DNA from: Oscillospiraceae bacterium
Lineage (GTDB): Bacteria; Bacillota; Clostridia; Oscillospirales; Oscillospiraceae
Reading direction: 5' to 3'
Assembly (NCBI GenBank): GCA_017549125.1
Contig: JAFYVL010000068.1
Span: forward strand, 1 to 35,394
DNA length: 35,394 nucleotides
The notes under the pieces are model-generated. The model saw only the letters and a list, made by a program, of their open reading frames with translations, was not told the origin of the DNA and did no database searches. Made by a program: the position numbers and the translations under genes. This document shows, one piece after another, positions 23,465 through 35,218 of the stretch. The first letter of the stretch is position 1; each line of letters begins with the position of its first letter.

Positions 23465-23672
23465 ACCATTCCGTGGCAGGTATGGCGCATGGTCATGCTT
23501 GCTGAACAAGATAATCGGGTGTAATTCCCGAACGGTACCGCCGCTGTAAGATCTGAGAGGCACGATTTGGTGAAAACCGGTCACTGGAAGCAATTCTGGG
23601 AAGGCTGTCGTGCTTTGTGGGACGCACCGCCCAGAAGATCCAGTCAGAAGACCTACGGAACTGGCATTTTCA
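23465..23672 (+). ncRNA. Cobalamin (B12) riboswitch
   Basis: The leader has the conserved cobalamin aptamer blocks in order: CGGGTGTAATTCCCG, the B12-box region ACGGTACCGCCGCTGTAA (23541-23558), GGTGAAAACCGG, TCACTGGAAG, CTGGGAAGG, and the closing CAGTCAGAAGACCTACGG (23651-23668). Adenosyl- or other cobalamin binding should switch the downstream terminator. Aptamer ends are approximate. It precedes the DUF4430 and ECF S-component genes. Confidence 0.92.
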
Positions 23673-23717
23673 GCATCCTCTGCGTGATATGGAGGGTGTA
23701 TTGTCGCGGAAAACCGG

Positions 23718-24730: not shown

Positions 24731-24756
24731 TAGGGACGGGAGACCCGTCCCCTACT
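24731..24756. repeat. REP palindrome, family D, isolated copy
   Basis: GGGACGGGAGACCCGTCCC followed by CTAC (GTAG on the minus strand). It is the same core as the cluster around the transposase gene at 34.4-35.2 kb. Confidence 0.85.
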
Positions 24757-33400: not shown

Positions 33401-34108
33401 ATGCGAAAGGATTTCACAGCCGGAATCCGTGCAGGTATTCCGGTCTGTTTGGGATATTTTTCCGTAAGCTTTGGATTTGGTGTGATGGCGGTCTCCAAGG
33501 GGCTGAATCCCTGGGATGCCATTTTGATCTCCCTGTCCAATTTGACCAGCGCAGGACAGTTTGCAGGTCTGACGGTGATCGCCGCCGGTGCGGCCTTGAT
33601 CGAAATGATCCTGACCCAGCTGGTGATCAACAGCCGCTATGCCCTCATGAGCGTGGCTTTGGGGCAGAAGCTTGGCCCGCAGGTGGGTACAGGTCAGCGG
33701 CTGGCTATGGCATTTTTTAACACGGACGAGGTATTTGCCCTGGGTATGACCCGATTGGGGAAGCTCTCCCCTGCCTTCTTTTTGGGCGCAGGCTTGATCG
33801 CCGCCCTGGGATGGACAGCCGGCACAGCCACGGGTGCGGCCGCCGGCGCGGTACTGCCCCTGTCTGTACGGCTGGCTTTGGGTACTATGCTTTACGGCAT
33901 GTTCATCGCCATCGTCATTCCCCAGGCAAGACAAGAAAAACCCATGCTGTTTTGCATGGGCTTGGCGCTGGTATGCAGTTGTCTGTTCGCCTGGATGCCG
34001 GGTCTTAGGGATGTGAGGGACGGCCTCGCCATCGTGATCTGCACCGTGGTCACAGCGGCGGTATGCGCACTGGTATTCCCTGTGCCGGAACAGGAGGGTG
34101 CGCAATGA
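33401..34108 (+). CDS. azlC: AzlC-family branched-chain amino acid exporter, large subunit
   Basis: AzlC and AzlD form a membrane exporter for branched-chain amino acids and analogues. The 235-residue protein has six to seven membrane segments and the family core GIPVCLGYFSVSFGFGV near the start, TSAGQFAG, and NSRYALMSVAL. It overlaps azlD by four bases (ATGA). It is divergent from the LivJ-like binding protein, linking import and export of similar substrates. The ribosome site is weak (AAAGAG, 10 bases). Confidence 0.92.
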   Translation: MRKDFTAGIRAGIPVCLGYFSVSFGFGVMAVSKGLNPWDAILISLSNLTSAGQFAGLTVIAAGAALIEMILTQLVINSRYALMSVALGQKLGPQVGTGQRLAMAFFNTDEVFALGMTRLGKLSPAFFLGAGLIAALGWTAGTATGAAAGAVLPLSVRLALGTMLYGMFIAIVIPQARQEKPMLFCMGLALVCSCLFAWMPGLRDVRDGLAIVICTVVTAAVCALVFPVPEQEGAQ

Positions 34109-34416
34109 GTATTTACATTTATATTCTTGTGATGGCGCTGACCACCTATTTGATCCGTGCCATTCCCCTGGTGCTGTTTAAAAAGCCCATTGACAGCCGG
34201 TTTGTGCGGTCTTTTCTGCATTATGTGCCGGTGGCCTGTTTGACCGCCATGACCTTCCCCGCCATTTTGTATGCTACAGATCATGTGGTCAGCGGTGTCA
34301 TGGGTTTGGGGGTGGCTGTGGTGCTGGCATTGTGCAATCGCAGTTTATTGACCGTTGCCGCCTGCGGATCATTGGCGGTGTTTGTTACGGATTGGTTGAT
34401 GAAAATGATGTTTTAA
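34105..34416 (+). CDS. azlD: AzlD-family small subunit of branched-chain amino acid exporter
   Basis: This 103-residue membrane protein has four hydrophobic segments and the AzlD pattern TTYLIRAIPLVLF, HYVPVACLTAMTFP. AGGAGGG at 34092-34098 lies 6 bases before the ATG, and the start overlaps the azlC stop. Size is normal. No strong terminator is seen before the REP copy at 34432. Confidence 0.9.
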   Translation: MSIYIYILVMALTTYLIRAIPLVLFKKPIDSRFVRSFLHYVPVACLTAMTFPAILYATDHVVSGVMGLGVAVVLALCNRSLLTVAACGSLAVFVTDWLMKMMF

Positions 34417-34431
34417 CAAAAAGGCTCCCCT

Positions 34432-34458
34432 CGTAGGGGACGGGTCTCCCGTCCCACT
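34432..34458. repeat. REP palindrome, family D, with GTAG foot
   Basis: CGTAGGGGACGGGTCTCCCGTCCC, the GTAG being on the plus strand. It lies 52 bases before the transposase start codon. Confidence 0.9.
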
Positions 34459-34509
34459 AAGTTAAAAAATTCTTAGAAAAAACCATCCTGTACGGAGGTA
34501 GGGCATAGA

Positions 34510-35034
34510 ATGGAATTTCAAGAAAGAACACCCAACCGTATACCTGAGTATGATTATAGCTTGAACGGTGCTTACTTTGTTACCATCTGCACCCAAGACA
34601 GAAAGAGAATTTTGAGTAAGATCGTAGGGGACGGGTCTCCCGTCCCACAAACCTGCGGAAAGATTGCAGAAGCAATGATTTTGCAAATTCCCAACAAATA
34701 TCCGTCTGTATCGGTTGATAACTATGTTATCATGCCCGATCATATTCATTTGTTGCTTCGGTTTGATAGGGATTTAGGGACGGGAAACCCGTCCCCTACG
34801 ATAAAGGATTGCGGGACGGGAGACCCGTCCCCCACATTGGGAAATGTGGTTGGTTGGTATAAATACCAGGTTACGAAGCAAATCAATTCATTAACAAATA
34901 CCCAGGGAGTTAAAGTTTTCCAAAGGTCCTATTACGATCATGTCATTCGAAATCAGCAGGATTATAACGAAATATGGGAGTATATCCAATACAACCCCAA
35001 AAAGTGGGTCATCCAAAAACGAGGATTTGAATAA
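34510..35034 (+). CDS. REP-associated tyrosine transposase (RAYT) with in-frame REP insertions
   Basis: The 174-residue protein has the Y1/HUH fold of RAYTs: YFVTICTQDRKRI (22-34), the metal motif HIH (78-80) in IMPDHIHLLL, and the catalytic Tyr in FQRSYYDHVIR (Tyr141/142), followed by EYIQYNPKKW. RAYTs process GTAG-flanked REP hairpins as single strands. Three REP palindromes are translated within the gene: residues 38-46 (34622-34646), 88-97 and 101-109 (34775-34835), each in a variable loop and without breaking the frame. GGAGG lies 11 bases before the ATG. Catalytic residues look intact, so the enzyme may be active. Confidence 0.92.
   Translation: MEFQERTPNRIPEYDYSLNGAYFVTICTQDRKRILSKIVGDGSPVPQTCGKIAEAMILQIPNKYPSVSVDNYVIMPDHIHLLLRFDRDLGTGNPSPTIKDCGTGDPSPTLGNVVGWYKYQVTKQINSLTNTQGVKVFQRSYYDHVIRNQQDYNEIWEYIQYNPKKWVIQKRGFE
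34622..34646. repeat. REP palindrome, family D, inside the RAYT gene
   Basis: GTAGGGGACGGGTCTCCCGTCCC, with GTAG on the plus strand, encodes VGDGSPVP in the linker between the first strand and the first helix. Confidence 0.92.
34775..34835. repeat. Two-REP module (BIME-like), copy 1, inside the RAYT gene
   Basis: Two family D palindromes (34775-34800 and 34813-34835) are joined by GATAAAGGATTGC. The 61-base block matches 35127-35187 with three mismatches. It is read as LGTGNPSPT and CGTGDPSPT. Confidence 0.9.
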
Positions 35035-35045
35035 AGTGCAGCATG

Positions 35046-35070
35046 TGGGACGGGAGACCCGTCCCCTACG
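35046..35070. repeat. REP palindrome, family D
   Basis: GGGACGGGAGACCCGTCCCCTACG, 12 bases after the RAYT stop, with GTAG on the minus strand. Confidence 0.88.
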
Positions 35071-35102
35071 GCGCATTGATTTCGTTTGGTGCGAAAGTCC
35101 AT

Positions 35103-35128
35103 CGTAGGGGAGGCGTTTCGCCTCCCTA
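35103..35128. repeat. REP palindrome with variant core
   Basis: GTAGGGGAGGCGTTTCGCCTCCC keeps the GTAG foot but has the core GGAGGCG/CGCCTCC instead of GACGGG/CCCGTC. Confidence 0.8.
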
Positions 35129-35187
35129 GGGACGGGAAACCCGTCCCCTACGATAGAGGATTGCGGGACGGGAAACCCGTCCCCTAC
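35127..35187. repeat. Two-REP module (BIME-like), copy 2
   Basis: This 61-base block repeats 34775-34835 with three base changes. Both palindromes here keep intact GTAG feet on the minus strand. It lies outside the gene, in the gap before the partial gene at the right edge. Confidence 0.9.
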
Positions 35188-35218
35188 GTTGATTATTCAT
35201 TATTCATCAAATTGCAAA

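Follow-up and report, generated by a model that had tools for sequence, protein, structure and literature searches.

REP palindromes in the reading frame of a RAYT transposase gene, and a matched outward-facing pair of REPs in its relatives

A RAYT gene with REP palindromes inside and around it

The window, by which we mean the whole stretch of 35,394 nucleotides analysed here, comes from an Oscillospiraceae bacterium (assembly GCA_017549125.1, contig JAFYVL010000068.1). The gene under study (Table 1) is open throughout, starts with ATG and has a GGAGG sequence about 10 nt 5' of the start. Directly upstream lie the AzlC and AzlD genes for branched-chain amino acid transport (33401-34416), and farther away a cobalamin riboswitch (23465-23674; 58 bits). 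The protein matches the PF01797 (Y1_Tnp) profile with an E-value of 1.9e-4 and 22 bits, for a cut-off of 23. Its HUH motif is DHIH (codons 77-80) and its conserved tyrosine is codon 158; H78, H80, Y158 and N162 are invariant in two RAYT alignments and P163 is invariant or nearly so, in agreement with the first-pass annotation, which had proposed from the sequence that the HIH and tyrosine motifs are kept. A profile built from the protein and 55 relatives matches the TnpAREP structure 4er8 (2.2e-14), and Y158 aligns with the tyrosine of YIYINP in 4er8, which we take to be the catalytic residue. The gene is a RAYT (TnpAREP) gene by its HUH motif and predicted catalytic tyrosine, and by the GTRG-footed REPs found both near it (flanking REPs a and e) and in the genome (26 copies of the core). 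The genome, which is 71.5% complete, has four other RAYT matches, 37-50% identical to this one, where an IS200/IS605 insertion sequence would be expected to have near-identical copies.

Table 1. Features at the RAYT locus (window coordinates).
Feature	Coordinates	Strand	Description
RAYT / TnpAREP gene	34510..35034	+	174-aa open reading frame; profile search and alignments
REP a	34433..34455	+	upstream flank, GTAG foot at left
REP b	34624..34646	+	in-gene loop 1, codons 39-46, forward, GTAG foot; common to orthologue L022
REP b-to-c stretch	34647..34776	+	framed by outward-facing REPs; HUH codons 34738-34749 within
REP c	34777..34799	-	in-gene loop 2, unit 1, codons 90-97, inverted, CTAC foot; absent from L022
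REP d	34813..34835	-	in-gene loop 2, unit 2, codons 102-109, inverted, CCAC foot; position and GATTGC flank as in L022
Two-REP module, in-gene copy	34775..34839	+	65 nt
REP e	35047..35069	-	downstream flank, inverted
REP f	35104..35126	+	variant stem GGGAGGCG/CGCCTCCC, forward
REP g	35129..35151	-	downstream module, unit 1, inverted
REP h	35165..35187	-	downstream module, unit 2, inverted
Two-REP module, downstream copy	35127..35191	+	94% identical to in-gene copy; gene-type flank GATTGC

The first-pass annotation had also described eight palindromes within 760 bases around the gene, three of them translated in frame, and a 61-base module repeated with three mismatches. All of this was found again: the eight palindromes extend from 34433 to 35187 and are GTRG-footed, the three inner ones are read through as VGDGSPVP, GTGNPSPT and GTGDPSPT, in the order of the codons in Table 1, and the repeated module extends to 65 nt with four mismatches. 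Seven of the eight palindromes carry the core GGGACGGGNNNCCCGTCCC, the remaining one being the variant REP f. The core has 26 exact copies in the 2.29 Mb genome, of which seven fall within the 760 bases at the RAYT gene, and its reversed control has none; the cluster is therefore not due to chance. One lone copy of the core lies at 24733-24751 of the window, 10 kb from the RAYT gene.

The palindromic loops are old insertions shared with relatives

A related gene was found in 22 of the 60 genomes searched, most of them of the same genus. The nearest relative, L022 (71% identity), carries REPs of this family in both loops, with a single unit in loop 2, and in many other relatives the two loops hold different palindromes. 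Palindromes in the loops are thus no peculiarity of the window gene. A few relatives (L002, L031) keep loop 1 with a decayed palindrome, and one group (L033, L034, L035, L037, L038, L039 and L049) are without loop 1 and have a short loop 2 without a palindrome. With the loops placed by sequence alignment, they are insertions relative to L033, L034, L038, L039 and L049, as had been supposed, and loop 2 falls at a 7-position gap of E. coli TnpAREP (4er8). Because relatives carry other, decayed or no palindromes at these places, the insertions must be of some age and are common to many of these genes. Among the relatives compared, no homologue with the same loops in a REP-free genome was seen, a case that would have spoken for ancestral coding sequence. 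One RAYT remnant (L056, positions 1310-1550, genome G005) retains the loop 1 REP, an internal deletion having taken the HUH part.

The repeated module had been read as DNA that moved between the gene and its flank, and this stands in part. L022 has counterparts of two of the inner REPs, and REP c alone is new relative to it, so that an origin of the loops in a recent move of the module is not supported. DNA did move, as the shared GATTGC indicates: the GATTGC beside REP d belongs to the gene in L022 as well and, among the 26 exact core copies of the genome, whose flanks were all inspected, it adjoins only REPs d and h. At least one transfer therefore probably went from the gene to the downstream flank, the downstream copy of the module taking gene-derived flanking sequence along. 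The two units of loop 2 are 36 nt apart and have similar flanks (GATAGGGAT and GATAAAGGAT), and the third inner REP may have arisen by a tandem duplication of about 36 nt; as loop 2 exceeds that of L022 by 14 codons (42 nt), such a duplication would leave 6 nt unexplained.

The inner REPs form a matched pair that faces outwards

The loops were surveyed in 136 distinct RAYT genes, of which 80 were named loci and 56 came from further searches; matches over fewer than 120 of the 163 profile positions and duplicate coding sequences were excluded. Since the 80 named loci are the best 80 of at least 490 relatives, the sample leans towards the kin of the window gene. A hairpin score of at least 18 was reached in loop 1 of 73 genes and in loop 2 of 105; outside the loops, 14 genes reached it. 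When the codons were shuffled synonymously (10 shuffles a gene), this score was reached by 4.3% for loop 1, as against 53.7% observed, and by 9.0% for loop 2, as against 77.2%. It is vanishingly improbable that the loops are normal coding sequence in which the palindromes are an accident of how the peptides are encoded: peptides starting with VG do recur in many relatives, but the hairpins are lost on synonymous shuffling and the peptides vary widely while the palindrome is kept. In two genes (L126 and L249) the loop 2 hairpin is very long (score 43) and is not of the single-foot type.

The GTRG foot is at the 5' side in 68 of the 73 loop 1 hairpins, and CYAC is at the 3' side in 92 of the 105 loop 2 hairpins; the feet of the inner pair thus point away from the HUH codons that it encloses. 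In 71 of the 136 genes, a forward REP preceding the HUH motif is combined with an inverted REP of matching sequence behind it, both feet pointing outward. When loop 1 is compared to the reversed loop 2 in these 71 genes, the identity is 0.936 for loops of one gene and 0.70 for loops of different genes, and none of 10,000 permutations exceeded 0.744; for 44 of them no other gene supplied a better-fitting loop 2. One gene, L121, is an exception that counts against the rule, having inner REPs at both loops with the feet inward. Among the 80 named genes, the inner pair was found in 40 of 53 from Bacillota and in 1 of 27 from other phyla (an Omnitrophota gene); of these 27, 17 have a REP in loop 2 only, several of them of the double-foot type, and 9 have neither by the same criterion. 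One isolate, Gemmiger formicilis DFI.6.10 (L064), has two RAYTs with inner pairs. A second sample of 60 further genes, partly from genomes already used, was analysed with the same thresholds; 57 could be classed, three being without the motifs, and 26 inner pairs were found, with an identity of 0.924 within genes and 0.673 between them.

Genes with an inner pair seldom have REPs on both flanks

REPs were then counted within 300 nt of the genes, 3 of the 136 being dropped for short flanks. Of the 22 genes that have no inner REPs, 15 carry REPs on both flanks, as compared to 7 of the 69 with an inner pair (Fisher's test, 2.7e-7), and the contrast holds at distances of 200-500 nt and at two thresholds (p from 9.6e-8 to 3.5e-6). 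The genes without inner REPs have a forward REP upstream and an inverted one downstream in 14 of 22 cases; against this, the inverse order (inverted upstream, forward downstream) occurs in 5 of 22, some genes having both. When only loop 2 bears a REP, a forward REP lies upstream in 22 of 37 genes and an inverted one in 9 of 37; the forward ones match loop 2 at 0.83-1.0, which is partly so by construction, as a search for near copies was among the ways of detecting them. The flanking REPs of inner-pair genes had no orientation bias (9, 11, 10 and 10 of 69). A forward REP before and an inverted REP after the HUH codons were found in 105 of 133 genes, by definition so in the 69 with an inner pair.

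In the second sample, where one gene of the class "none" and one of the class "other" were dropped for short flanks, both flanks carry REPs in 5 of 11 genes without inner REPs and in 1 of 26 with an inner pair (p 0.005); counting against the pattern, only 3 of 9 loop-2-only genes have an upstream forward REP. A tree-based test for independent switches between inside and outside gave three well-supported contrasts and was not significant; the test is underpowered, and the genes are related by descent. The window gene itself is an exception with REPs both inside and outside, as are 6 other inner-pair genes of the 69, L022 included. As inner-pair genes are short of flanking REPs, the pair that usually flanks a RAYT gene seems to have become internal in them.

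The REPs could also be mere passengers, that is, selfish elements that land anywhere and survive in the insert-tolerant loops of RAYT proteins, in the manner of Rickettsia palindromic elements, RAYT genes being hit most because they lie amid REPs. This corresponds to the published view of subclass 2.4 RAYTs, in which the insertions are peripheral and have little effect on activity (PMC6006769, in the part of its text available), and it agrees with the position of loop 2 at a gap of E. coli TnpAREP. It would predict neither the fixed orientation at each loop, nor the matched partners, nor the shortage of flanking REPs in inner-pair genes, and we consider it unlikely.

Cognate REPs and free REPINs in the genomes

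Inner REPs tend to have near copies (at most 4 mismatches) close by: one was found within 1.5 kb at 49 of 110 own genes as against 25 of 660 swaps. The REPs of six genes (L070, L075, L078, L082, L085 and L112) have 24, 7, 15, 2, 16 and 36 copies, respectively, in their own genomes, and 0-7 copies in 14 other genomes. L004, a gene of the window's own genome, has a REP whose loop variant occurs in that genome only, among the matches listed. In genome G019, which is 100% complete, all four exact copies of its RAYT's REP sit at that RAYT, two of them inside it, and the genome of L082 has two exact copies, which the gene itself contains. A strict tie between RAYT and REP is opposed by the distribution of the window's own core: three genomes of the same genus without a RAYT match hold 4 (G011), 12 (G015) and 1 (G018) copies, and G019 holds 16, yet its one RAYT match bears another REP.

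REPs less than 250 nt apart, free and inner taken together, were in the order forward then inverted in 17 of 17 pairs in the comparison of the six genes above (six of the pairs inner) and in 16 of 16 close pairs of genome G029 (one inner), in both cases by eye. Free REP pairs thus share the outward geometry of the inner pairs; against this, the inner and flanking copies of G019 also form two neighbours in the order inverted then forward. The spacing is 43-118 nt in the free REPINs fetched and 141-303 nt (median 170) in the inner pairs, and the REPIN inserts look, by eye, unlike the HUH segment. The inner pair is therefore not simply the parent of the free REPINs, and an origin of these by copying of the in-gene pair together with its insert was not supported by this inspection. 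In G029, 8 of 10 REPINs chosen from close pairs (L168-L177) share, by eye, one insert of about 90 nt, in which two small palindromes can be seen.

Constraint and predicted folding of the loops

Between genes with a core identity of at least 60%, fourfold-degenerate sites differ in 61% of cases in the core (1988/3247) and in 28% in the loops (490/1754), the gene pairs counted sharing sequences. Paired stem changes were seen between sister genes in loop 1 (L146/L148) and in loop 2 (L003/L083). Low change in the loops and paired changes in the stems can result from either selection or gene conversion. Counts of paired changes in the inner stems were set aside, as the units had been picked for being hairpins.

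Gene conversion without selection for function, in which recombination with genomic REPs keeps the inner REPs alike, would account for the low synonymous change, the matching of inner REPs within genes and the copying between gene and flank in the window; it could alone suffice to keep the pair matched, which counts against the best explanation given below. It leaves the fixed outward orientation and the trade-off between inside and outside unexplained, and G019 and the genome of L082 have no exact copies away from the RAYT gene that could serve as donors, exact copies being what was searched. As the whole explanation we regard it as decidedly improbable.

As single-stranded DNA, the window gene is predicted to fold better than 100 shuffles (z -5.5), with REP b pairing with REP c over about 25 base pairs. 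The RNA of 34425-35200 is likewise predicted to fold far better than 20 shuffles (z -8.5), as would be expected if hairpins in the mRNA slowed ribosomes or recruited the RAYT protein and so limited its own synthesis; for IS200 transposases, limitation by hairpins in the mRNA is described (PMC3733652, in the part available). The same hairpins are expected from a role in DNA, however, and the outward order of the feet is irrelevant for RNA. The GTAG foot, which an RNA stem does not need, is kept at both loops, and it is there that E. coli TnpAREP cuts or is guided, according to the portion of the literature available. A role in the mRNA is, on this evidence, rather improbable.

Relation to known systems and interpretation

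In-frame REPs within tnpAREP genes were described for subclass 2.4, generally between the HuH and Y motifs, by Quentin et al. (2018, PMC6006769), so that, on the part of the paper available, in-gene REPs are known in kind, and the notion that the whole phenomenon was unpublished was dropped; REPs inside other genes were reported by Di Nocera et al., in a source likewise available in part. Subclass 2.4, which corresponds to RAYT group 4, resembles the present genes in its HUH/Tyr enzyme, its GT[AG]G REPs of canonical and double-foot types and its in-frame REPs. Its hosts are named as Cyanobacteria, Bacteroidetes and a number of phyla. The window gene likewise has REPs in frame between HuH and Y (REPs c and d, codons 90-109). 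Its motifs are DHIH, FQ and YIQYNP, compared to the published NH[IFV]H, WQ and YIxNNP, and those of its relatives are NHIH or DHIH, WQ or FQ and mostly YIxxNP. Unlike our findings, the text on subclass 2.4, in the part available, describes no matched outward pair astride the HUH motif and no trade-off with the flanks; it mentions an 8-residue insertion elsewhere, which may or may not be loop 1. A matched outward pair across HUH and an inside/flank trade-off were not found reported in the open-licence literature, as far as its texts were available. The feature is thus general and known in outline, while the outward-pair rule and the flank trade-off are new and deserve a proper test.

Two further systems, again judged from the available parts of the papers, share an inverted pair. 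RAYT genes with two inverted flanking REPs (Nunvar et al. 2010, PMC2817692; the "REPtron" of PMC6006769) have such a pair for each RAYT, and cognate REPs in the genome, but there the pair lies outside the gene, whereas here it lies inside and frames the HUH part. The REPIN, or REP doublet (PMC6006769), is an inverted pair with an insert, as are the free copies found here, and differs from the inner pair, which encloses enzyme coding sequence at a wider spacing. Rickettsia palindromic elements (PMC3733652) are comparable in being palindromes translated in frame within proteins; they have a CGTC foot, and CGTC repeats are said in the available text to lack a dedicated transposase, while the REPs of the window have GTAG or GTGG feet and none has CGTC.

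Across the relatives, comparison of the sequences shows inner REPs that are matched, that face outward like free REPINs, that form predicted hairpins beyond what the protein needs, and that occur mostly where the flanks are without REPs. The best explanation, which we hold to be probable by a little, is that the window gene is a RAYT of the group 4 or subclass 2.4 type with its cognate REP pair inside the frame: the REPs that flank classical RAYTs as an inverted pair would occupy two tolerant loops within the coding sequence, one on each side of the HUH motif. We infer that REPs within the gene would tie the enzyme to its substrate, the loss or transfer of one taking the other along, and that the gene would be a permanent local source of REP copies. 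Preservation of the hairpins would be due to selection favouring single-stranded hairpins that can be cleaved, to gene conversion involving genomic REPs, or to both. It is quite possible, although we would not call it probable, that these are internalised transposon ends, a large group of Clostridia RAYTs having moved the outward REP pair into the frame, so that a REPIN would carry the catalytic codons as its cargo and recombination could not separate enzyme and substrate.

These findings bear on the persistence of RAYTs and on how each remains matched to its own family of REPs. If the REP pair is kept either around or inside the gene, there is probably a need for a linked pair, and this speaks against mere passengers. 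The survey yields dozens of pairs of an enzyme and its putative substrate, each REP lying within the gene of its own enzyme.
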